Below are positions 24,765 through 64,000 of a stretch of 64,000 bases of DNA, piece by piece. The translations under genes and the position numbers were made by a program. The notes beneath the pieces were generated by a model. That model saw only the letters and a list, made by a program, of their open reading frames with translations, ran no database searches and was not told where the DNA came from. Source of the DNA: an uncultured Fibrobacter sp. (GTDB taxonomy: Bacteria > Fibrobacterota > Fibrobacteria > Fibrobacterales > Fibrobacteraceae); assembly GCA_900313675.1 (NCBI GenBank), contig OMSO01000003.1, positions 1-64,000 on the forward strand, read 5' to 3'. Every line of letters begins with the position of its first letter. Position 1 is the first letter of the stretch.

Positions 24765-25925
24765 ATGGGAGTGCGTTTTTTTACTCTAGTTTTATTCGTC
24801 ACTTTAGTGGTCTTTGTCGCATGTACGGACAATGCCCATCCCGTATCCCCCAAAGACGAAAATCTAACTTCATCTGCAAGCATCATCGAACTAGATTCGT
24901 CGTCAAGCATAGACAAAAAATCCAGTCCATCTGGAAAATCCGAAAATTCCAGCTCATCAAAGGCGTCAGACAAGTCCAGCTCGTCGGGAAAGTCCGATGA
25001 TTCTAGCTCATCCAGAAACACCAATGATTCCAGTTCATCCGAGAGCACCAGCAACTCCAGTTCATCAGAAAGCACTGGAGAATCGAGTTCCTCGAAAGAT
25101 GAGTCTAGCAGCTCAATAGTAGAGTCCAGCAGTTCTGAAGTGTCCAGCTTTTCAGAATCCAGTTCTTCTGAAGAATCCTCCAGTAGCGAGACATTGAGTT
25201 CGTCATCCGTAAAAAAGACTGCTTGGGGCTACTTGAACCAAGAAATGCTTGCCAACGGAAATTACGAGGAATTTACCGATACAAGAGATGGCCAGAAATA
25301 TAAAGCGATCAAGGTGGGCGACCTTACCTGGATGGCGCAGAACTTGAATTTTGAGTATAAAGACGTAAATGGAAAAACCATCCAAAATTACTGCTATAAA
25401 AACGAATTGGATAGTTGCGAAATTTATGGAAGACTGTATTATTGGAGCGCTGCCATGGACAGCCTAGGATTATATTCTGAAAAAACAAAGGGCTGTGGAT
25501 ACGAAGTAAAATGTAATCCCGAAGAACCAGTTCGTGGAATTTGTCCCGAAAATTGGCGACTCCCTACAGAAGGGGAATGGCATGATCTTATCTCTATTCA
25601 AAATGCACCTTATTCATTAATCTCTGATGTAATACAATATGATTATCCTAATTGGGAAAAAGCAACGAACACCACAGGTTTTTCTGTTTTGCCGGCAGGA
25701 TTGATTCCCAACGGCAATGAAGGCGATCAGGCACAAATGGTAGGAGAAAAAGGTTACTTTTGGAGCTCTACGGAATATGAATCATCCCAGCCGATATATC
25801 AGCTATATAGAGCCCATATGGTTATTTTTGGTTCTAACAATTATCAAGGCTATGTTTCTAACAGCACCGAAGAAGCTTTTTATGAAAAGAATTTTGCCTT
25901 GTCTATCCGTTGTGTAAAAAAATGA
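24765..25925 (+). CDS. FISUMP-domain lipoprotein
   Basis: 386 residues. A lipoprotein signal ends at FVAC (Cys20). Residues ~35-145 are a long Ser-rich linker with regular spacing (SSSS-x-x-S units), typical of Fibrobacter surface lipoproteins. Residues ~160-386 are one Fibrobacter succinogenes major domain (TIGR02145-like): DTRDGQKYKAIKVGDLTWMA, RLYYWSAAMDS, GICPENWRLPTEGEW, FWSSTEYE and a final SIRCVKK. Function is unknown; the domain resembles C-type-lectin-fold binding modules. The coding sequence is more AT-rich than the housekeeping genes around it. Confidence 0.9.
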   Translation: MGVRFFTLVLFVTLVVFVACTDNAHPVSPKDENLTSSASIIELDSSSSIDKKSSPSGKSENSSSSKASDKSSSSGKSDDSSSSRNTNDSSSSESTSNSSSSESTGESSSSKDESSSSIVESSSSEVSSFSESSSSEESSSSETLSSSSVKKTAWGYLNQEMLANGNYEEFTDTRDGQKYKAIKVGDLTWMAQNLNFEYKDVNGKTIQNYCYKNELDSCEIYGRLYYWSAAMDSLGLYSEKTKGCGYEVKCNPEEPVRGICPENWRLPTEGEWHDLISIQNAPYSLISDVIQYDYPNWEKATNTTGFSVLPAGLIPNGNEGDQAQMVGEKGYFWSSTEYESSQPIYQLYRAHMVIFGSNNYQGYVSNSTEEAFYEKNFALSIRCVKK

Positions 25926-32562: not shown

Positions 32563-33930
32563 TTATTCATCCTTTACGCAACGAACAGAAACGACGAAGC
32601 TACCTCCTCCCCCATACAGGCTGATTTCATCAGAATCATAAAAGAACACAAACCTGGTTCCCGTTGCACTCCAAAAGCTTGTGCTATAACCCAAATCATA
32701 GTTTATTGAAATTCCTGCAGGAATGGCAGAAAAACCAAACGCATCGACACCATTTCCTGACTCATTCCAACCATCTGTTGATTTCAGCACCCTGGCAGCA
32801 GTCTCTTTTCCACCTACTGTTTTAAACAACTGCTCCCATTCTGTTGAATCAGGCAAATGCCATTTTTCAGGGCAAATACCACGTACAGGATAAGTTGGAG
32901 AACAAGTCTTAGGATAGCCACAACCTTCTCCATTTGACGAAAAAACTCCCAAAGTATCCATTGCAGAAGACCACGTGTAAAGCCTTCCATATTTTTCGCA
33001 ATTATCCAAATCTAAATCATAACAAAAAGATCTCTCTTTCATAGTCGTTCTATTATAGTTTGTCGTATATTCGGCAAGATCCTCATAATTCAAATTTTCG
33101 GCCATCCAAGTTTGCGAACCCATTTTCACAGTCTTATATTCATGACCATCCCTCTCATCTATAAAACTGCCCATCTCTCCCAAAACAATGGAGGGGTCTT
33201 TCAAACACCGAATAGAAGCAAGTGTATATTTCTCCGTTTTACCCATTCCTACACTTGTCCCTATACCAGCCGAATATTCCAAAACATCACTGCCGACAGT
33301 AGAAGTCCAAAAGCTTGCGTGACTGTCTAATCCGTAAAACGTACCATCACGTGAAGTATATCCTGACATCACAGCATTCCATCCATCTTCTCGTTTAAGC
33401 TCTATTGCCGCCTTATCCAAGCCACCTACGGCGTCAAACAAAATTTTCCATTCCGTAGTATCAGGCAAGTACCAACCTGGAGGGCAGGCATATGCAGCCT
33501 CTTTCGCAGTGTAAAGACGTCCATACTTTTCGCAATTACTCTCATCGTTTTTATAACAACGGCCCGCCGATGCATAGTTCAAGTTTTCCGCCATCCACAC
33601 TTGCTCTCCAATTTGGACACTATTATAAACGTTGTCATCACGGCAATCTATAAAACTATCCTTTATATAAGAAAGAACCGACGACGAAGACACACTTGAA
33701 GAAGATTGGCTAGATTCAACCTCTTGCGAGCTACTGGAGGAATCATCTAAATGTTCCTCGCTAGACGAGGAAACTTTGCCTTCATCTTGATTTGTTTGAG
33801 AATTTGAAGAAAGCTGTTCTGCACCCCCATCCTCGCTCAAATCAACAGAACTACTGCTATCACCTCCGCAAGCAGCAAGAGCGAGGGCAAAGAAACACGC
33901 CACAATATTTTCATTTTTATACCAAGTCAT
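32563..33930 (-). CDS. lipoprotein with two FISUMP domains
   Basis: 455 residues. The lipoprotein signal ends at LAAC (about residue 20). A Ser/Glu-rich linker (about 22-90) precedes two FISUMP-like domains at ~95-245 and ~255-455. The first is shortened (IDCRDDNVYNSVQIGEQVWM, CPPGWYLPDTTEWKIL, IRCLKD). The second is full length (DERDGHEYKTVKMGSQTWM, RLYTWSSAMDT, GICPEKWHLPDSTEWEQL, VRCVKDE). Shine-Dalgarno AGGAGG precedes the ATG. It starts 11 bases after the next FISUMP gene, so the pair is co-transcribed. Function is unknown. Confidence 0.9.
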   Translation of the reverse strand: MTWYKNENIVACFFALALAACGGDSSSSVDLSEDGGAEQLSSNSQTNQDEGKVSSSSEEHLDDSSSSSQEVESSQSSSSVSSSSVLSYIKDSFIDCRDDNVYNSVQIGEQVWMAENLNYASAGRCYKNDESNCEKYGRLYTAKEAAYACPPGWYLPDTTEWKILFDAVGGLDKAAIELKREDGWNAVMSGYTSRDGTFYGLDSHASFWTSTVGSDVLEYSAGIGTSVGMGKTEKYTLASIRCLKDPSIVLGEMGSFIDERDGHEYKTVKMGSQTWMAENLNYEDLAEYTTNYNRTTMKERSFCYDLDLDNCEKYGRLYTWSSAMDTLGVFSSNGEGCGYPKTCSPTYPVRGICPEKWHLPDSTEWEQLFKTVGGKETAARVLKSTDGWNESGNGVDAFGFSAIPAGISINYDLGYSTSFWSATGTRFVFFYDSDEISLYGGGGSFVVSVRCVKDE

Positions 33931-33941
33931 GACAGCCTCCT

Positions 33942-35165
33942 CTAATCCATAACACAGCGGACAGCGTATTCAAAGCCTTTAAATTCGGACCACACATGCG
34001 TCTGGTGGTTTCTTGCAATATTAAGTGCACTAGCAGCGCCCTCGTCGTCGGGAGCTCCCCAGAAATTAGCCTGATTTCCTCTTCCATGATTATGATAGCC
34101 ATCCCCTGTAGGCAGGGCGTTAAAATGGTAGGTGTTGTCACCATTACCATCTTCTCCATTATAATCATTCCATCCATCCCTAGACTTGAGGAAATAACCA
34201 GCCTCCAAATATATCACCGAATAAATGAAAGCATCATCATGAGTTTTATAGTAATAATCAAATTCAGGATACTCATCGGCATGCTTTTCAGCGAAATAGT
34301 CATAGTTCTCATATGTTTGTAAAACTAGGCTATCAAAATCATCCTTTGTCGGCAAATGCCAACCTTCTGGGCAGATTCCCCTTACAGGATAAGTCGGGGA
34401 GCATACCGCCCCATTTCCACAGCCTTTACCACTTGTCGAATATAGCCCAGCGCTATCCATTGCGGCCGACCAGGTATATAGTCTTCCATAGCCATCTTCA
34501 CAGTTCCCAGGGTCATCACCATAGCAGAAACTACTGGAATCAAGTTCGTCTGTTCCCTGAAGATAACGGAAGTTCAAGTTTTCAGTCATCCACACCTTTT
34601 TACCAATGACCGATATCCAATACAGTTTCTTATCTCTACTATCACACATTTTAACATTCGAAACATAACGTAACGATGCGTCACATGAGTTAATTGAAGG
34701 GCCACCACAACATGCGAACAATGGAATGAGCTCATTTTTACTCTTATTACACCAATATTTAGAAGTCTCAAAAATCTGATCGCCACATTTACCCTTCAAC
34801 ATACCCGACACGCAAGCCCTATCTTCAGGATCATATTCCGTACCATTGCAAATAAATTTTTCAGAACTACTGGAAATCACGGAACTACTAGAACTTGTTT
34901 CCTGACTATCCGATGACTCCGTACTTGAACTTGAAAAGGAAGAACTAGAAGAGTCGCCGTTTTCGGCAGAAGTCCCAGAATCTGAAATGTCAGCATTATC
35001 AGACGAAGCAGGCTGCTCCGAAGAGGACAGGGGAATCACCTGTTCAGGATTATCCGAAATCTCTTCTGGAGAATTGGAACTGCCAGAATCCCCGCAACCG
35101 TAAAGCAGCAGGGCTAAAATTACCAGCAGGGCGAAATTGGAAAACGGGAACAGGTTGTTTTTCAT
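33942..35165 (-). CDS. FISUMP-domain lipoprotein
   Basis: About 407 residues. The ATG at 35165 is chosen because it gives a proper lipoprotein signal (MKNNLFPFSNFALLVILALL, lipobox YGC) and has GGAG eleven bases upstream. A Ser-rich linker (~25-105) is followed by a small Cys-rich insert (~108-170: YDPEDRACVSGML, LFACCGG), then a FISUMP domain (~180-407) with RLYTWSAAMDSAGL, GICPEGWHLPTKDDF and YAVRCVMD. The Cys-rich insert is absent from the other two lipoproteins. The coding region is AT-rich. First gene of a two-gene FISUMP operon. Confidence 0.9.
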   Translation of the reverse strand: MKNNLFPFSNFALLVILALLLYGCGDSGSSNSPEEISDNPEQVIPLSSSEQPASSDNADISDSGTSAENGDSSSSSFSSSSTESSDSQETSSSSSVISSSSEKFICNGTEYDPEDRACVSGMLKGKCGDQIFETSKYWCNKSKNELIPLFACCGGPSINSCDASLRYVSNVKMCDSRDKKLYWISVIGKKVWMTENLNFRYLQGTDELDSSSFCYGDDPGNCEDGYGRLYTWSAAMDSAGLYSTSGKGCGNGAVCSPTYPVRGICPEGWHLPTKDDFDSLVLQTYENYDYFAEKHADEYPEFDYYYKTHDDAFIYSVIYLEAGYFLKSRDGWNDYNGEDGNGDNTYHFNALPTGDGYHNHGRGNQANFWGAPDDEGAASALNIARNHQTHVWSEFKGFEYAVRCVMD

Positions 35166-35229
35166 TTGGGCATCTCCATTGTTAAATAACTGGAGTCCTG
35201 CCCCCCATTTTGCAAAGAGTTCTTGCCTT

Positions 35230-35487
35230 TCATAGAAAAGCGCGGGTCGATGCATTTATCCACGTGAGGCTCAGCAATGCCCAATGAACGATAAATGCAA
35301 ACGACCCACGCCCCGAAATGGGCTGTTGCCCTTGGTCTTTACAACCAACAATCAGCAAAAAGCTGATAAGACAAACTGAAACATACCGCAAAAACGGCAT
35401 GCCTGCGTGAGCGTTCGCCTTGTCCCCGTTCATTTGAAATTTGCTGATTTCACATGGAGAACAAGAGCAGAATCTCTTTAGTCTCAT
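35230..35487 (-). CDS. possible small lipoprotein-like ORF
   Basis: About 85 codons from the ATG at 35487. It contains VCLISFLLIVGCKDQG, which looks like a lipoprotein signal, followed by only ~35 residues of no clear character. It may be real, a remnant of a lipoprotein gene, or chance within a long leader for the FISUMP operon. The rest of the 459-base gap (35166-35624) holds an A/T-rich promoter-like TATATATT stretch, a terminator and a palindromic element. Confidence 0.25.
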   Translation of the reverse strand: MRLKRFCSCSPCEISKFQMNGDKANAHAGMPFLRYVSVCLISFLLIVGCKDQGQQPISGRGSFAFIVHWALLSLTWINASTRAFL

Positions 35488-55611: not shown

Positions 55612-55890
55612 TCATTTGTCCAGGTAGTATTCCTTCACGAGTGCGTCCCAAGCGCTGACTCCGTCCTCGATTTTTATGCTCCGGATGGTGTCGATGACAA
55701 AGTCCATACCGTAGTCATCGATGAATGAGTAGATGGAAAATTTGATATTCTTCTGAACCTCGTCAATGGGCAGATTGCAGCGGGCCCCACAGAAAGGGCA
55801 GTGTTGTATTGTTTTCACGAGAAACTTGGGCAGTTCAGCTTCAATTTTACACTTGTTGCAAACGAATGTGGAAGTTTCCGATTTTGCCAT
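55612..55890 (-). CDS. small zinc-ribbon protein
   Basis: 92 residues from the ATG at 55890, where AAGGA lies upstream; the longer frame lacks support. Two Cys pairs form a zinc ribbon (FVCNKCKIE and HCPFCGARC). The C-terminal half is helical (IYSFIDDYGMDFVIDTIRSI). Not recognised. It is divergent from the dynamin operon with a 214-base gap, so it could be a regulator of it or simply a neighbour. That gap (55891-56104) holds a long AT-rich stretch and the dynamin promoter. Confidence 0.75.
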   Translation of the reverse strand: MAKSETSTFVCNKCKIEAELPKFLVKTIQHCPFCGARCNLPIDEVQKNIKFSIYSFIDDYGMDFVIDTIRSIKIEDGVSAWDALVKEYYLDK

Positions 55891-56041
55891 AGGGGATCCT
55901 TTTTTAAGCAAATATACTCTCGGTAGCAAGTCCTCCCCAGACTCAAAATTTCGAGGTTCCAGAAAGTGGAACTTTTGGGGCTGAATGTTCATTTGCGTGA
56001 ATATTCCAAGTTGGAATAGGAAAATTCAAAAAAAGATTTTT

Positions 56042-56104: not shown

Positions 56105-57823
56105 ATGTCCTCGCTGAAGACTAAAGAACTATATACTAGCATTGTAGATGAAATGATCAAAATCGCCTCGAATATAGAATACCCCAACGAAAAAGCGGAA
56201 ATCTTAAAGAAAACCATAAAAGACTATGAACTCCTGATTCCCGTAGTTGGCGAATTCAGCGCAGGCAAAAGCACCTTCTTGAACTCCTTTATCGGTCGTA
56301 AGGTCCTTTCTGTCGCTGTAACCCCAGAAACTGCAGTAGCAACGGAATTACGCTACTCATCGGAAGAATATGCCGAAGTACTTATCGATAAGGGCGAATC
56401 TCTCGATAGCAAGCGCATCCCCATCGCTGATATTTCCAAGGTCCAAAAAGATTGGCGCTGCATAAGGCTCTATCTCAATTCCGAAAATCTCAAAAAAATT
56501 GAGCCATTGGTTATGGTTGATATGCCGGGGTTTGATTCTCCACGTGACGACCACAACAGGGCAATCGCTAGTTACCTGAACCGCGGTGTGCATTACGTGG
56601 TCTTGACTAGTGTGGATAGCGGAACCGTTACCGCCTCGATGAAACGTCAAATCCAAGACATCCAGAATATGGGACGTACCTGCTCGTTCTTTGTCAGCAA
56701 AGCAAACCTGCGTAACGAAGAAGACGTGAAGGACGTCTGTGCAGAAGTCCAAGAACAGGTTGAAGACATTCTCGGCGAATCTGTAGAAGTGAAACCCCTG
56801 TACAAAGATGCGGGAGCCGAGCTCAAAAAACTGGTCGATTCCATTGATCCGGAAAAGCTCTTCAGTAAAGTGTTCAAAGACGCATTACTCCAGCTGATTG
56901 ACGAACTGAATTCCACCGTGATGACAAAGATCGCGGCCCTCAAAAGCGACCGCGAAAAGAATAAAAGTGCGATTCGCGACATGCAGGATGCTCTCGACAA
57001 GCTCCTAAGAAAGCGCGACAGGATGATTGCCGAAGCCAAGAACAACCATTTTGAAGATGATATTGACTCCATCACCTCTGCTGCAGGCAACGCTATCAAC
57101 TCTGAAATTGACCGATTGGTCGATATGGCTATGCACGGTTCTAGCAGTGAAGTCATATCCCAAGAAATGAATTCCATTGTCCGTTCAGCAGTTATTCCCG
57201 CAGTCAATACCGTTGCAAAAAACATCACAGAAAAAATATCGAGCAACTTCCAGATGGAACTGCAGGAATACCAAAAGACATTCAACCTTTTTGATAACCC
57301 AGAACTCGTTGCAAAAGTAGGGTCTGCAACAGCTCACCTGGGCGACATGGCAAAAGTTGCAATTAATGGAATTTCAACGGCAGCAAAGACAGCAGCATCC
57401 AAAACAGGACTGAACGCGGCATATAAAGCCATTGCAGGTGCCATTGGCATTGCCTCCAATGTTTTCGCACCCGTTGTTGAAATTGTCCTCCTCTTCTTGC
57501 CTGAAATTTTAGGGCTCCTTTTTGGTTCCATATCCAAAAAAAAGCAGGAACAAGAACAACGTCAAAACATTCGCAACCAAATTTTAAACACTATTCCGCG
57601 TATGAAGCGAGACTTGCGTAGCAAGATTGAACCAGAATTGCAAAAACAAAACGAAGCAGCAATCAACGCCATTTCGGAACAGTTCAATGAACGCGTGAAA
57701 GACCTCGCAGACAACATTCAAAAAGCCAACGAGACTCTTGAAAATAACGCAGATGTCGTCGAAAAAATGCAGAAACTCGAATCAGCTAAGGTTGAACTCA
57801 ACCAGCTCAAGGACAAAGTTTAA
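56105..57823 (+). CDS. dynamin-like GTPase 1
   Basis: 572 residues. The N-terminal GTPase domain has G1 GEFSAGKST (49-57), a G2 Thr in VTPETA (72-77), G3 DMPGFDSP (139-146) and a G4 region SKANL (~198-202; the consensus Asp is missing). Long helical stalk regions follow (~270-420 and ~490-570). A hydrophobic stretch at ~450-478 (APVVEIVLLFLPEILGLLFG) could be a membrane paddle, as in bacterial dynamins. AAGGAG precedes the ATG. It heads an operon of three different dynamin-like proteins. Length and layout resemble LeoA of E. coli. A membrane-remodelling or defence role is inferred from the family. Confidence 0.9.
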   Translation: MSSLKTKELYTSIVDEMIKIASNIEYPNEKAEILKKTIKDYELLIPVVGEFSAGKSTFLNSFIGRKVLSVAVTPETAVATELRYSSEEYAEVLIDKGESLDSKRIPIADISKVQKDWRCIRLYLNSENLKKIEPLVMVDMPGFDSPRDDHNRAIASYLNRGVHYVVLTSVDSGTVTASMKRQIQDIQNMGRTCSFFVSKANLRNEEDVKDVCAEVQEQVEDILGESVEVKPLYKDAGAELKKLVDSIDPEKLFSKVFKDALLQLIDELNSTVMTKIAALKSDREKNKSAIRDMQDALDKLLRKRDRMIAEAKNNHFEDDIDSITSAAGNAINSEIDRLVDMAMHGSSSEVISQEMNSIVRSAVIPAVNTVAKNITEKISSNFQMELQEYQKTFNLFDNPELVAKVGSATAHLGDMAKVAINGISTAAKTAASKTGLNAAYKAIAGAIGIASNVFAPVVEIVLLFLPEILGLLFGSISKKKQEQEQRQNIRNQILNTIPRMKRDLRSKIEPELQKQNEAAINAISEQFNERVKDLADNIQKANETLENNADVVEKMQKLESAKVELNQLKDKV

Positions 57824-57837
57824 TAAGGGAACGTATA

Positions 57838-60063
57838 ATGTCTACAGAACGTCTTGAAAAAATTATCGAGAAACGCAACACTTTGGAATCTTTGGCTATC
57901 AAGCACAAAGAGATTTTACACGATGCATTTTTAAACAAGTGCAGCGACTTAAAAGATGAGCAATATCTTCGCAGGGAGTACGAGCAACAAATTGACGCCA
58001 ACCGCGATTTGCAAATTGGCATTGTCGGGCGCGTAAAGGCAGGCAAATCTTCTTTGCTGAACGCACTCCTTTTTGGCGGATCTACAATACTCCCCAAAGC
58101 GGCAACGCCCATGACCGCAGCATTGACCGTATTGTCCTATTCCGACAAACTGAAAGTAACCGTGCGATTCTTTGAGCCAGGAGACTTTACAAAGCTCAAG
58201 GAAAAAAGTGACGCTTACGAAAACAAGCTCCGCAAACTCGAAAACGAACTTTTCGAAAAAGCTCGGAAAGAAGCAGAAATCAAAGCAGGCGGATTTACTA
58301 AAGCCATCTTCGACGAAGCCAAGGCTCGTAATAGGGCGGCTTGCGATGCCAAAAGAACCCTGCGCGAAGACATAGGGCTTTCTGGCGCATTTGACCAATA
58401 CCAGAAAATAAAAGCATCACCAATCTCGCAAAACGAAGTTGCAGGCCAAATCAAAGAACTCTACCCCAATTCCGTTGAAGATATATCTACAATGCTTGCC
58501 GATTACGTTGGTTCCGAAGGCAAGTACATGCCTTTTACGCAGAGCGTCGAAATTGCATACCCCAATGAAAAACTGAAGGGCATCCGCATTGTCGATACTC
58601 CGGGGTTCAACGATCCGGTCCCCTCGCGAGAAGAACGCGCCTACCAGCTCTTAAAAATAAGTGATGTTGTCTTGATTCTCAGCCAAGCCGGCCGCTTTTT
58701 AGATGCCAATGACAAAGCAGTCCTTGACAAGATTACAGTCAAAGACGGGCTCCGTGAACTGTTTGTTGTTGCAAGCCAAGTGGATACGCAACTTTTGGGT
58801 GACGAATACTTCGGCATGTCCCTAGAAGATGTATATAGCGATATCGCAAGCAGGCTTTCACAGCAAGCACGTTCTGTCCTTACGACTTGTAACGAAAGCG
58901 GGGCTTTCGACCAGCTAATCCATGACGATGGCAGCCGCGTTATCTTGGTTTCTGGCGATTGCGAGTCTATGTACTTGACATTTGCCAACAAAAATTCTTG
59001 GGACAAAGACAAGGTAACCATTTGGAAAAACCTTTGCGATAACTTTAGAGATTACTTTTCCGATAAGGATGAAGCGACATCCAAAGCGTCACTGAGACGT
59101 CTTAGCAATATTGATGTCGTTGAATCAAAAATCGAAACCGTCAAGCAAAAGAAAAACGAAATACTGGCTGATAGCGCGAACAAGATTTGTACCTCGTGGG
59201 AAAACGCCGCAGAAGATTTAAAACGAGGAATGAAAGATGCTGCAGAACAGCAAATTAAACGAATTAATGAATGCAACATCAACAGCCTGCAAAACGAAAA
59301 GAACTCCATCGAAAGCTTCTGCATGAAGGTTGAAGCAGGCATCTCAAATGCGGTCATCAGTGCTGTTGACGATTGGCGTTCCGAAACAACAAAAGAAATG
59401 ATGTCGTTCGTAAACGACTTACAGGCCGATGCAAAAAATGATGCAAAAAATGCAAGAACAGAATTTACCAGACATCACACATACACGACAGGATGGATTT
59501 TTAAAGATTACCATGAATACACTACCCAACATACCCGCGTAAACCCAGTTCAGCTCAGGGCCGCTGTTGAAGATTACACAGGAAAGGTAAACAACAACCT
59601 CAAAAACGAAATTCTGTACGAACTTTCACAGCTGAAACGCAAAATTTCCTCCAAAGTTGCAATCGTATGGGCAACAAAAGCGGCAGAACAGAACATGGAT
59701 GAAGATGCCGTCGCCGTCAAAATCAACGCCATTATCGAAAGCCTGAACATTCCCGACTTCAAATTGCCCGAAGACACACTCCCGAAAGAACTTCGTGAAT
59801 CTGGAGCCAAGGAAGACGAAGCCGGCGACCATCTGCTCGCCGTTTGCCGTTCCTACCTCAACGAACTCGCAAACAAGATGAGCAGCCAGCTGATTGATGA
59901 AATCGCCCGTTACGCAGGTGCCATCAAAAAAGCAGATTTAGCGTCGAAGCTCCTGGAAAAGTATCGCAAGGACTTGGATAATCTTATCCACGATATTCAA
60001 AACAAGGAGCAGTCCATTAACCTGTACGAAAAGGTTATTGAGGAATTGGAGGTCATTGCCTAA
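57838..60063 (+). CDS. dynamin-like GTPase 2
   Basis: 741 residues. G1 GRVKAGKSS (64-72), a Thr-rich G2 (KAATPMTA, about 87-94), G3 DTPGFNDP (~252-259) and a G4-like region VVASQVDTQ (~308-316). Between G2 and G3 lies a ~100-residue charged helical insertion (EKSDAYENKLRKLENELFEK and onward), unusual for a dynamin GTPase domain. The C-terminal half (~430-741) is long helices with no clear membrane segment. It starts 14 bases after gene 1 and overlaps gene 3 (TAATG). Compare LeoB/LeoC-type partner GTPases. Confidence 0.88.
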   Translation: MSTERLEKIIEKRNTLESLAIKHKEILHDAFLNKCSDLKDEQYLRREYEQQIDANRDLQIGIVGRVKAGKSSLLNALLFGGSTILPKAATPMTAALTVLSYSDKLKVTVRFFEPGDFTKLKEKSDAYENKLRKLENELFEKARKEAEIKAGGFTKAIFDEAKARNRAACDAKRTLREDIGLSGAFDQYQKIKASPISQNEVAGQIKELYPNSVEDISTMLADYVGSEGKYMPFTQSVEIAYPNEKLKGIRIVDTPGFNDPVPSREERAYQLLKISDVVLILSQAGRFLDANDKAVLDKITVKDGLRELFVVASQVDTQLLGDEYFGMSLEDVYSDIASRLSQQARSVLTTCNESGAFDQLIHDDGSRVILVSGDCESMYLTFANKNSWDKDKVTIWKNLCDNFRDYFSDKDEATSKASLRRLSNIDVVESKIETVKQKKNEILADSANKICTSWENAAEDLKRGMKDAAEQQIKRINECNINSLQNEKNSIESFCMKVEAGISNAVISAVDDWRSETTKEMMSFVNDLQADAKNDAKNARTEFTRHHTYTTGWIFKDYHEYTTQHTRVNPVQLRAAVEDYTGKVNNNLKNEILYELSQLKRKISSKVAIVWATKAAEQNMDEDAVAVKINAIIESLNIPDFKLPEDTLPKELRESGAKEDEAGDHLLAVCRSYLNELANKMSSQLIDEIARYAGAIKKADLASKLLEKYRKDLDNLIHDIQNKEQSINLYEKVIEELEVIA

Positions 60064-62072
60064 TGCAGTTAAACGACTTAGAAGGAAAATTCAACCTCGT
60101 CTCCCAACTTTTGTCCGCAAAGCCTACAGCCGACGAGGCATTAAGCAAATTCCAGCAGCTGATGGACAAGGACTACATCGAATACGCCAAAGTCGACGAC
60201 GCCCTCCCCGAAGAAGCCGAAGCATTGCTCGAACTGCAAGATATCCGCAGAAGCCTTGAAACATTCATCCACAACAAGGATGTCTATAGCAAGAACGCCA
60301 TCGCGCTTGCAGGTGGTTTTAGTAGCGGTAAATCGACTTTCTGCAACCATATCTTTAGCACAAGAGAAATTCTGCTTCCTGTAAGCATCAACCCCGAAAC
60401 TGCAATCCCCGCTTATGTCATCAGTGGCAATAAAGCTCCAAACGCTTTCGGTTTAACATCTGCAGGAGGCGTAGTCGAACTCGGTGCAGATTCTTACAAG
60501 CAAATGAACCACAACTTCCTTAAGTCTTTCGGCTTCAACCTGAAGGACTTGATGCCATCCGTTGTGATTCACGCCAAGATGCCGCAGGAATACGAACACA
60601 TCTGCTTTATCGATACTCCGGGCTACAATTCCAGTGAAACAAAGGATTCCTTCACAAACCGCGACTACGAAACCTCGCTCATGTTTATCAAGCAGGCGAA
60701 AGTCCTGTTCTGGTTTGTAGGCATGGATGGTAACGGGACACTGATAAATACCGACGTAGAATTCCTACAAGACGTCTTGAAAACCGCACCTGACAAAAAA
60801 ATCGTTGTGATATGCAACAAGGCAGAATTGAAAGCCCAAGAGGACCTGGAAGACATCCTGGACCATTTTGCAGACATTCTAGACGATAATGACATACCTT
60901 ACGAAGGCATCATCGCCTACAGTTCAAAGCAGCACAAGGAATACGGTTATCGCAAAAATTCGCTAGACAAAATCATCAGCGATTTAAACCGCCAAAATAC
61001 AGACAAGAAAAAAGAACTGCAAAAACGGCTCAAAAAACTTTTCAACAAACACGTCATTGCCGATGCTAATAGGATCCAGACAATAACCGAAAAAATCAAG
61101 ACCTTGAACCAGATTTTGTTGCACTTCAAATCGTTGATGGACAATGTTGAATCAAAATTCAGCCAAGAAGCCGCATACGCACGGCGCGAAGCCATTCGTC
61201 AAGGTAGCAAATACGAAAAGAAGAACGAACTTGGAACAGAATCTATCGCGCTGATTACCAAGAACATCTCGAAACTAAAGACTGACTTGGAAAAAGATGT
61301 TGAAAAGTACAAGCATAACAAAGACACGATTTCTGAAATAGCATCGAAAATGGAAGAAATCGTAAAGGAAATTTTCAAGGGATTTGAAGATTCATCCGAC
61401 GATGCTTACGTCAACATACCCGCTGGCACATTTACCATGGGATCCGATAACGGTCCAAGAGACTCCAAGCCCGCCCACAGCGTCACGCTTGATGATTTCA
61501 AGATGAAGGCAACGCTTGTTACTCAAGCCGAATGGAAATCCATCATGGGCGACGTGAATCCGTCAAAATTCAAGGGCAACTTGCTGCCAGTCCACAACGT
61601 ATCCTTTGCAAAAGCCGTGGAATACTGCAACAATCTCAGCACTCGCGAAGGATTGACACCATGCTACAACGCAAAAGGCGTTTGCGACTTTTCCGCTAAC
61701 GGATACCGCCTGCCTACCGAAGCAGAATGGGAATACGCGGCAAGTTCTTTTGCCGAAAAGCCTTTGCAAAACTGCGCATGGTACAAGGGGAACGCGTCCG
61801 AAACAATCCAACCGGTCGCCCAAAAAGAAGAAAACTCTTTGGGTCTTTATGACATGCTCGGAAACGTCTATGAATGGACCAACGACTACTGGGACGACTA
61901 TTCAAAAATCGCCCAGCAAAATCCGCACGGTCCCTCCAGCGGCGATGAACGCGTGATTCGCGGCGGTTCATTCAAGAGTACTGAAAACAACTGCACCGTA
62001 TTCGCAAGGAATATGGCCGAAGAAGACGATGCTCTGCAACCTATCGGATTTAGAGTTGTGAAGAGGGGGTAG
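60063..62072 (+). CDS. dynamin-like GTPase 3 fused to a formylglycine-generating-enzyme-like domain
   Basis: 669 residues. The GTPase domain has G1 GGFSSGKST (84-92), G2 NPETAIPAY, G3 DTPGYNSS (~184-191) and G4 CNKAEL (~251-256). A helical region spans ~310-445. Residues ~448-669 are a SUMF1/FGE-like C-type-lectin-fold domain: VNIPAGTFTMGSDNG, RLPTEAEWEYAA, GLYDMLGNVYEWTNDYW and VIRGGSFKS ending in FRVVKRG. After RGGSF, where active FGE enzymes carry a Cys pair, only one Cys is visible (ENNCTVFAR), so it is more likely a binding or scaffold domain than an enzyme. The fusion of dynamin and FGE folds is the most unusual protein in the window. Confidence 0.9.
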   Translation: MQLNDLEGKFNLVSQLLSAKPTADEALSKFQQLMDKDYIEYAKVDDALPEEAEALLELQDIRRSLETFIHNKDVYSKNAIALAGGFSSGKSTFCNHIFSTREILLPVSINPETAIPAYVISGNKAPNAFGLTSAGGVVELGADSYKQMNHNFLKSFGFNLKDLMPSVVIHAKMPQEYEHICFIDTPGYNSSETKDSFTNRDYETSLMFIKQAKVLFWFVGMDGNGTLINTDVEFLQDVLKTAPDKKIVVICNKAELKAQEDLEDILDHFADILDDNDIPYEGIIAYSSKQHKEYGYRKNSLDKIISDLNRQNTDKKKELQKRLKKLFNKHVIADANRIQTITEKIKTLNQILLHFKSLMDNVESKFSQEAAYARREAIRQGSKYEKKNELGTESIALITKNISKLKTDLEKDVEKYKHNKDTISEIASKMEEIVKEIFKGFEDSSDDAYVNIPAGTFTMGSDNGPRDSKPAHSVTLDDFKMKATLVTQAEWKSIMGDVNPSKFKGNLLPVHNVSFAKAVEYCNNLSTREGLTPCYNAKGVCDFSANGYRLPTEAEWEYAASSFAEKPLQNCAWYKGNASETIQPVAQKEENSLGLYDMLGNVYEWTNDYWDDYSKIAQQNPHGPSSGDERVIRGGSFKSTENNCTVFARNMAEEDDALQPIGFRVVKRG

Positions 62073-62076
62073 GGGA

Positions 62077-62508
62077 ATGGCAGAAATAAATGATAAAGAT
62101 TTTAAAGGCATGAATCATCATTTTCCTAGTATCTATAAATCCGTTAAATTAGATAATTATCGTCCAGATGTTTGTTTCGCAAAAAATAACGAAGAGTTAA
62201 TAGTTTTAGAATTAGAAAATAAAACAGATAGAAAACCATATATAGGAGCCTTATTAGAAGCGTGTGTACATGCTGAAAAAGAAAGTTATAGAATACTGAA
62301 AATTTATTTTATAATGATTGAAAAAGAAACACAAATCAATGTTGGTCAAATGGCTAATTACGCAAAACCTTATGTTGATTGGTTAAAAAGGAAATTAGAG
62401 GGAATTATATTGATACAAGTTTTTTGCATTTCTCAACAGGACTATCAACGAATAAATAGTGATGGCGTTTGTATATTAAGTTGTGAAGAATGTGTAGAAA
62501 TTGAATAA
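62077..62508 (+). CDS. small PD-(D/E)XK-like protein of unknown function
   Basis: 143 residues, AT-rich codons. RPDVCFAKNNEELIVLELEN has the D-x(n)-E-x-E spacing of a PD-(D/E)XK nuclease core, but Asn stands where Lys is expected, so nuclease activity is doubtful. The rest is helical with an amphipathic region. It starts five bases after the dynamin 3 stop, with GGGGTAGGGG across the junction as Shine-Dalgarno, which ties it to the dynamin operon. Confidence 0.7.
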   Translation: MAEINDKDFKGMNHHFPSIYKSVKLDNYRPDVCFAKNNEELIVLELENKTDRKPYIGALLEACVHAEKESYRILKIYFIMIEKETQINVGQMANYAKPYVDWLKRKLEGIILIQVFCISQQDYQRINSDGVCILSCEECVEIE

Positions 62509-62556: not shown

Positions 62557-63546
62557 ATGCGCTACTCAAAAACTAAAAATGAATCGAAACAGAAAAAAAG
62601 AAACCTCAAAAAAACGGATCCACTCAGCTTAATCATAGCTGAATACGGTGGTGAAGAAATATTTGACGAGGGTAACTATTCTCGTTTAAATAAAGCATTA
62701 ATGGCTCTTGATGATTCTTATGGTCAGGCAAAAGATTGGTTGCTAATCGCCAATATGAAGCATATTCCGCAAAAAATGTATTCAGTTCGCAATTCAACTC
62801 AACGTGAAAAACAGCAAACAGCAGAAGAGTGTAGAGACATATTAAGTGCTTTAATTTTAGATAAAAAAACAAGCGAAGAAATCATTATTTATATTACATC
62901 AATTCTAAATATCAATGTTGCTGTAGAACAAAAGATAGAAATTGAAAAAATAATAGACTCGTTTGAGTATGGCGATTACGAATATAAAACCTGCCAAATA
63001 GACGATAAGATATGGTTTGCGGAAAACTGTAATTTTAGTGAAAACCCTATTCTTCTAAAAAGAAGAAAAAATGACAGAAAAGCATTTCCAACATTGACGT
63101 TTCTTGAAACAATAGCATCAGCATTAAATGGAAATATTATTGGGCAAAGTGTAGATAATAATAAATTTGGACGATCTTATAAGTGGAATGAAGCAAACAT
63201 GTATATACCATCTGGTTGGCGGTTACCAACTGTTGAAGACTATCAAGATTTAATAGCTCATATTAAATCTTTGGATTACGATGCAGGAACAGTATTAAAA
63301 TCAACCAATCAATGGCATGGTAGTGCAGAAAAAGGATTAGATTTATTCGGTTTTTGCGCTTGTCCAACAACAAGAAATTCCGAAACAGGGGCATCGCAGA
63401 CATGGTTTTGGACATCCTCGGAAACAAATGATTCTACATATCCTCATCATTGTATTTGCATTGATGCTAATAGTAATGATGTTATAATCGGCAGTGCTGG
63501 AGATGCATGTCGGGCTTGCGTTCGTTTTGTAAAGGATGTGGAATAA
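62557..63546 (+). CDS. cytoplasmic protein with new helical domain and FISUMP domain
   Basis: 329 residues with no signal peptide or lipobox, unlike the other FISUMP proteins here. After a Lys-rich start, residues ~25-130 form a helical domain shared with the next gene (ALMALD, LLIANMKHIPQKMYSVRNST, then VAVEQKIEIE). Residues ~135-329 are a FISUMP domain: YEYKTCQIDDKIWFAENCNF, SYKWNEANMYIPSGWRLPTV, FWTSSETND and ending ACVRFVKD. AGGAAGG precedes the ATG. Strongly AT-rich, with AAA and TTA codons common. Probably an intracellular sensor or scaffold; function unknown. Confidence 0.8.
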   Translation: MRYSKTKNESKQKKRNLKKTDPLSLIIAEYGGEEIFDEGNYSRLNKALMALDDSYGQAKDWLLIANMKHIPQKMYSVRNSTQREKQQTAEECRDILSALILDKKTSEEIIIYITSILNINVAVEQKIEIEKIIDSFEYGDYEYKTCQIDDKIWFAENCNFSENPILLKRRKNDRKAFPTLTFLETIASALNGNIIGQSVDNNKFGRSYKWNEANMYIPSGWRLPTVEDYQDLIAHIKSLDYDAGTVLKSTNQWHGSAEKGLDLFGFCACPTTRNSETGASQTWFWTSSETNDSTYPHHCICIDANSNDVIIGSAGDACRACVRFVKDVE

Positions 63547-63579
63547 TCTTGCGATAAAAAATTGGCAATAGGTGAAAAA

Positions 63580-64000
63580 ATGGCGACGGAAGAAATATCT
63601 TTAAGGAGTGTTACAAAATGTCCCTTATGTGGGGCGTTTTTGTCGAATTCTTTGCCATCAATTGAAAATGAAACGATTGTATCTGAATTGAAACATCTTG
63701 TAGATGCTTTTGGTGGAATAGAAATACTTAGTGAAGAAAACGCATCTCGATTTACGAAAGCGTTGATGAAACTTTCTTCGCCATTTGATGTAGTTCGTGA
63801 CAAATTGCTTGTTGCTAATATTCGGAATGTCCCTCAAAAATTATATTCTGTTTTAGAATCCACACAAAGTGAACAACAGCGGATGGTTGATCAATGTTTT
63901 GATGAATTGATGTTTTTGGGAATCCAAGAAAAGTTTGCAGAAGAAGTAATTTCTTGGATTGTTAATATTTTGCAAATGCCTGTTTCAGTGGAACGAAAAG
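63580..64000 (+). CDS. partial gene: CPLCG motif plus the same new helical domain
   Basis: Open to the window edge, 140 codons visible. AGGTG five bases before the ATG. A zinc-ribbon-like half motif (KCPLCGAF) is followed by a domain collinear with residues ~25-130 of the previous protein: ALMKLS, LLVANIRNVPQKLYSVLEST, then MPVSVERK. About 40% of positions agree by eye. The C-terminal part lies outside the window and by analogy may be another FISUMP or effector domain. AT-rich like its neighbour. Confidence 0.8.
   Translation, partial: MATEEISLRSVTKCPLCGAFLSNSLPSIENETIVSELKHLVDAFGGIEILSEENASRFTKALMKLSSPFDVVRDKLLVANIRNVPQKLYSVLESTQSEQQRMVDQCFDELMFLGIQEKFAEEVISWIVNILQMPVSVERK

Follow-up and report, generated by a model that had tools for sequence, protein, structure and literature searches.

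What would a bacterium do with three different dynamin-like GTPases encoded side by side, the third of them joined to a lectin-type fold? Descriptions of bacterial dynamins usually concern single proteins or pairs. The question is raised by an operon of Fibrobacter, genes A, B and C, near the end of the stretch of DNA analyzed here (the window), which is the first 64 kb of contig C51 (71 kb). We present evidence that these genes are inherited together across bacterial phyla, that they belong to a mobile island, and that they are followed by an array of genes for further lectin-fold proteins. The answer that we favour, and to which we give about an even chance of being correct, is that the locus is a horizontally spread, modular conflict system, probably directed against phages, in which lectin-fold sensors control a dynamin effector acting on the membrane.

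The GTPases

The three genes (Table 1) encode complete GTPase domains, with the complete G1 and G3 motifs that had been claimed in a preliminary description made from the letters alone. Each protein combines a Dynamin_N match with the G1 and G3 motifs expected of a bacterial dynamin-like protein: GEFSAGKS and DMPG in A, GRVKAGKS and DTPG in B, and GGFSSGKS and DTPG in C. A tree of 43 GTPase domains resolves three supported clades, which hold 7 (A), 11 (B) and 12 (C) of its rows; therefore the proteins are not recent duplicates, again in agreement with the preliminary description. C is a third dynamin type beside the A/B pair. Its layout, which bears out the claimed fusion to a fold like that of formylglycine-generating enzyme (FGE), comprises the GTPase (approximately residues 80–310), a coiled coil (approximately 311–445) and an FGE-like C-type-lectin-fold domain (448–667).

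A hydrophobic trunk tip of the membrane-binding kind is found in A only (approximately residues 450–475), B and C being without one. The corresponding place has a hydropathy of 2.0–2.35 in seven orthologues, all of which (7/7) possess the tip, and it is probably membrane-inserting. Because no protein of the set other than A contained a strongly hydrophobic segment in the hydrophobicity check, the system as a whole looks cytosolic. When the window is compared with genome G099, B (dN 0.073 vs dS 0.68, nonsynonymous and synonymous divergence) and C (dN 0.081 vs dS 1.48) are under purifying selection; A is less conserved (75%), mainly at the membrane-tip region (55%), with dS saturated for the whole of A. 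Approximately 60 residues precede G1 in B. In both A and B the N-terminus has changed faster than the rest of the protein, except for the tip of A. Two copies of gene A are split, one in genome G150 (L039 12155-13853) and one on the P. aeruginosa plasmid pPAG5 (L050 8138-9849), through either assembly error or decay.

The junctions are as tight as had been described, with 14 bases between A and B and a 1-base overlap of B and C. The co-directional run continues beyond 62072 across a gap of 4 bases to D and one of 48 bases from D to E, followed by at least six more genes past the window. The single upstream promoter of the preliminary description found no support: in a promoter scan, consensus promoter-like sites were no commoner than in shuffled sequence (15 vs 14.6).

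Table 1. Features of the dynamin locus and LeoBC loci elsewhere in the phylum (window coordinates unless a contig is named; locus stretch L037 = C51:62001-71137)
Feature	Position	Strand	Evidence or remark
Gene A, dynamin-like GTPase, 572 aa	56105..57823	+	Dynamin_N 1.1e-17 (Pfam, above cut-off)
Gene B, dynamin-like GTPase, 741 aa	57838..60063	+	Dynamin_N 4.7e-18 (Pfam, above cut-off)
Gene C, third dynamin-type GTPase + FGE-like domain, 669 aa	60063..62072	+	Dynamin_N 2.5e-13 (Pfam, above cut-off); FGE-sulfatase 8.5e-42
Gene D, 143 aa, family unassigned	62077..62508	+	Open reading frame
Gene E, first array member, helical domain + Fib_succ_major (FISUMP)	62557..63546	+	Fib_succ_major 2.2e-13
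Second array member, zinc ribbon + helical domain + FISUMP	63562..64000	+	Cut by window end
Five further array members	C51, to about 69800		Past window end
LRAT-domain gene	C51 69880-70449		After array; LRAT 3.9e-23
WYL-family gene	C51, from 70496	opposite to array	
Small zinc-ribbon gene	55612..55992	-	Left border of island
True LeoBC (Eleos) loci	G141:C26, G056:C8, G105:C2, G108:C4, G060:C5, G097:C16, G118:C4		Six = L189-L194

Lectin-fold domains and the gene array

FGE catalysis uses a pair of cysteines. Since the FGE domain of C has Ser in place of the first catalytic Cys of the human enzyme, as seen in all six homologues, FGE activity of C is unlikely, and an active formylglycine-generating enzyme was rejected as a candidate. 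The nearest solved relative by sequence is the lectin-fold Treponema variable protein, TvpA (2Y3C; 2.9e-28), a relation which supports the earlier suggestion that the domain could recognize a ligand.

Seven tandem genes follow D, the first of them, E, complete within the window and the second cut by its end. All encode a helical domain (HD) of approximately 100 residues, in some behind a zinc ribbon; six of the seven join the HD to a FISUMP domain and the remaining one to CFI-box-CTERM. The corresponding array of G099 (L006) has eight members. An AlphaFold2 model of E (pLDDT, the predicted local distance difference test, 79) consists of seven helices at residues 22–116 and a lectin-type domain at approximately 130–329. 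In a structure search its best match was once more TvpA (Z 10.2, root mean square deviation 3.8 over 155 residues), above the common level of the tool, the comparison covering mainly the lectin domain. The HD itself has no significant match among solved structures by sequence, and a profile search found it neither in the dynamins nor in the CFI-box protein of E. coli described below. One pair of array proteins from different genomes has 85% identity over the HD/N-terminal part but 37% over the lectin domain, suggesting that recognition domains have been exchanged; other array pairs are without a clear swap, and the general test for mosaicism is weak.

As in TvpA and other variable proteins of diversity-generating retroelements (DGRs), the FGE-like and FISUMP domains have the C-type-lectin fold of a DGR target, TvpA being nearest to both, and the catalytic cysteine is missing. 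DGR diversification was nevertheless rejected: no reverse transcriptase (RVT_1) was found in the 81%-complete genome, the search being for the enzyme alone and not for a template repeat, and the C-terminus of C is conserved between genomes, its last 40 residues not being hypervariable.

The LRAT gene beyond the array encodes two His and an NNCE[DN]F motif, and its product is 48% identical to the G099 counterpart. For D no relative was found in the 168 Fibrobacterota genomes of our survey; a possible PD-(D/E)XK-like motif is visible by eye only. Further FISUMP-domain genes lie within the window at 24765-25925 and 32563-35255. A distant family of zinc-ribbon, HD and FISUMP proteins occurs in many Fibrobacter genomes (L102 7700-8779, L103 5728-6732, L104 7888-8826, L105 7288-9249, L109 8878-9816), beside kinase/phosphoesterase, AAA, MoxR/DUF58/transglutaminase or SIR2/transporter genes. 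The MoxR/DUF58/transglutaminase set (L103) we take to be a common operon, and it was not used as evidence of defence.

Relationship to known dynamin operons

The best solved relatives of A and B in profile searches are, respectively, Cj-DLP2 [3.9e-17; 5owv_C] and Cj-DLP1 [5.9e-19; 5owv_A], in both cases mostly over the GTPase domain. These two are likewise the products of adjacent, different dynamin genes, in Campylobacter jejuni, and form a 2:2 tetramer which tethers membranes (PDB 5OWV; PMC6104087). The Fibrobacter locus differs in having a third GTPase with a lectin-fold domain, a sensor array and a mobile island, and B shows no evident counterpart of the 119-aa DLP1 assembly domain.

The preliminary description had assigned the operon to the Eleos type. 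Eleos (LeoA + LeoBC) and LeoABC of enterotoxigenic Escherichia coli are indeed alike in being mobile dynamin-like GTPase operons and candidate defence systems, and the PADLOC models for LeoBC and LeoA match A, B and C weakly. However, the LeoBC model (601 long) gives A 40 bits over 303–591 and B 30 bits over 24–171, whereas the true LeoBC genes of seven genomes of the phylum, which lie separate from the trio, score 154–325 bits over most of the model. LeoA is not among the solved relatives of A or B. LeoABC comprises two dynamins, the second of which is divided between LeoC (206 aa) and LeoB (PMC4159319); there, two GTPases or one split gene are found, while here all three GTPase domains are complete and the models are not matched full-length. 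Membership of Eleos/LeoABC was rejected on score and coverage, and we consider it very improbable indeed; the trio operon is better placed, on these comparisons, as a variant of the known bacterial dynamin operons outside Eleos. A second type of three-dynamin operon, outside the A, B and C clades, is present in other Fibrobacter genomes (L046 6149-11444, L047 8205-13375, L048 8879-13462).

DynA of Bacillus subtilis, a bacterial dynamin that delays lysis and slows phage release (PMC8844932), also acts against phage at the membrane, but it is a single two-headed protein without sensors. By analogy the trio might delay lysis for the good of the population, the GTPases holding the membrane together late in infection and the recognition parts doing no more than tune their recruitment, a role that the conserved membrane tip of A would suit. 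Since DynA works without sensor proteins, while up to eight sensor-like genes adjoin the trio here, we think such a function unlikely.

No description of the trio was found in the full text of the open-licence literature, and the module, which is real and conserved, is apparently undescribed.

Distribution and co-inheritance

The complete trio occurs in five of the 168 Fibrobacterota genomes (G000, G099, G150, G139 and G083), with an identity of 47–87% and always in the order A-B-C, and there is one decayed copy in addition. It is thus absent from most related genomes, where a housekeeping set would be present; neither of the outcomes that the preliminary description had named as fatal to it, scattered genes or a housekeeping trio, was encountered. 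An HD gene directly follows C in four of the five trio loci, and follows D in the window. Strong HD matches among the surveyed genomes are confined to those with the trio, to G077, which retains only C and one HD-FISUMP gene, and to G120, where a single HD-FISUMP gene adjoins the same neighbour as the G077 gene. The genes of G077 and G120 are, to judge from this arrangement, remnants.

Outside the phylum every one of the 15 plasmid records that have C has A and B as well, B being present in 18 records and A in 20. The plasmid hosts of trio genes are Calditerrivibrio, P. aeruginosa, E. coli/albertii, Photobacterium and Moraxella, and clades A, B and C each span Fibrobacterota, Deferribacterota and Gammaproteobacteria. 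The conserved co-occurrence that had been proposed as a check holds across genomes and phyla. Given this, and the same branching order within the three clades, we conclude that the trio is an old unit whose genes have moved between phyla together. Among 5426 complete genomes of E. coli the trio is found in five, all on plasmids, and is followed there by an 829-aa CFI-box-CTERM protein (L051 11312-13801) whose N-terminal part resembles a decayed GTPase by eye, with a weak Sel1-like match behind it; two phyla consequently have CFI-box domains next to the trio. None of the C homologues examined from outside Fibrobacteraceae has the FGE domain; in Calditerrivibrio and P. aeruginosa the GTPase of C is preceded by a long stretch that is probably coiled coil. 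The matches to C listed from viral contigs cover the FGE end only, and B is without a relative there or in phages. On one Moraxella plasmid (L053 3295-10589) B is accompanied by a 317-aa protein and by a C-related dynamin protein of 1291 aa.

The carriage of trio genes by plasmids, in Photobacterium once within a conjugation gene cluster, might point to a target other than phage, namely incoming conjugation or plasmids, or to competition between bacteria. No delivery or immunity genes were recognized beside the trio, which counts against this explanation, and we hold it to be improbable.

The mobile island

The end of C51 overlaps contig C21 by exactly 99 bases, and the two were therefore taken as neighbours. 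On this basis the distance from lysA to the C21 block is approximately 16.5 kb here vs 1.25 kb in G114, where one other gene lies between flanks of 94% and 89% DNA identity to those of the window genome. The zinc-ribbon gene on the left has an 84% identical DNA counterpart at the same site in G103, next to other cargo; it marks the border of an exchangeable island and is probably not part of the system. In G103 the zinc-ribbon and WYL genes, which bound the island here, enclose a different dynamin (681 aa), a 211-aa protein and a HerA-like ATPase of 1048 aa (L198 5450-13031), possibly another dynamin-based system.

The G099 module lies at another site, beside lon, with a WYL gene on the array side. 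Just upstream of the trio in G150 stand a JAB gene and a ThiF/E1 gene (1.5e-29 to PADLOC E1-E2). The G139 trio has a WYL-family gene upstream and, on its other side, an HD gene and an IetA-like AAA ATPase (3.4e-35). Defence genes are accordingly next to two of the five trio loci, and such a context, small though the counts are, is the pattern expected of defence cargo. Of the Eleos-type defence module first proposed, the affiliation has fallen; the defence role, favoured by the patchy, mobile distribution and by these two loci, is one that we infer.

The same distribution bears on an explanation in terms of envelope maintenance or vesicle formation, by which the trio would repair or remodel stressed membranes and the lectin-fold proteins would sense damaged envelope or pieces of cell wall. 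Membrane repair has been suggested for the Campylobacter pair to which A and B are closest (PMC6104087), and LeoABC affects vesicle release (PMC4159319). Presence in so few genomes, plasmid carriage and an exchangeable island are at odds with such a task, and the lectin-fold proteins, without a strongly hydrophobic segment, look cytosolic; we judge it a rather weak contender.

A model for the proposed conflict system

From the parts, their fold, their co-inheritance and their mobility, all read from the sequences, we infer complex formation, a ligand, membrane action and a benefit, in steps that run from the best supported to the least. Firstly, the relatives of A and B and the tip of A suggest that the two proteins pair heterotypically at the inner membrane, in the manner of the Campylobacter DLPs. 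Secondly, strict co-inheritance argues that C would join this pair as a regulatory GTPase with a ligand-binding lectin-fold domain. Thirdly, the lectin-fold domains of C and of the array proteins may bind ligands of the invader, to which the fold, the missing catalysis and the one domain exchange point; the array HD-lectin proteins would be further, exchangeable recognition subunits. Fourthly, the HD, shared by the array proteins and restricted to trio loci, could dock them on a shared partner, for which the dynamin assembly is the likeliest candidate, or on each other. Lastly, ligand binding might switch the GTPases to assemble on the membrane, which they would tether, remodel or permeabilize and so block the spread of the phage, with the LRAT-type enzyme perhaps altering lipids alongside.

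Comparable plans are known. Kaur et al. 2020 (PMC7159879) described NTP-dependent conflict systems (the vWA-MoxR ternary and DO-GTPase systems) that share with the present locus a GTPase/ATPase switch, an FGE-like lectin domain, small helical adaptors and variable recognition parts; the switch here is the dynamin trio, and the word "dynamin" appears nowhere in that article. Lectin-fold domains have also been proposed as putative antigen sensors, with dynamin unmentioned (PMC10907252).

Several observations weigh against a sensor-controlled defence system. The FGE fusion and the HD array are seen only in Fibrobacteraceae, so that the trio as such does not need them. The window's island is flanked by ordinary genes, lysA and hsp20, neither of which is known for defence. 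This genome has 75 FISUMP domains, and the presence of one alone means little. An AlphaFold2 model of C alone, made without an alignment, reached a pLDDT of 37.5 and was not used.

Biological significance

By travelling with a dynamin pair, the third GTPase and the lectin-fold proteins open a direct route to the question of what switches bacterial dynamins. If the trio does serve in defence, its occurrence on E. coli plasmids makes it testable in laboratory strains, and it would parallel in plan, among bacteria, the dynamin-family GTPases with which animals defend themselves. We raise, more tentatively than the conflict system itself, the possibility of an undescribed type of bacterial immunity, in which exchangeable adaptor-lectin proteins, encoded as a genomic array, switch a co-inherited dynamin trio, a plan comparable to that of animal immunity, where dynamin-family GTPases are coupled to a receptor repertoire.

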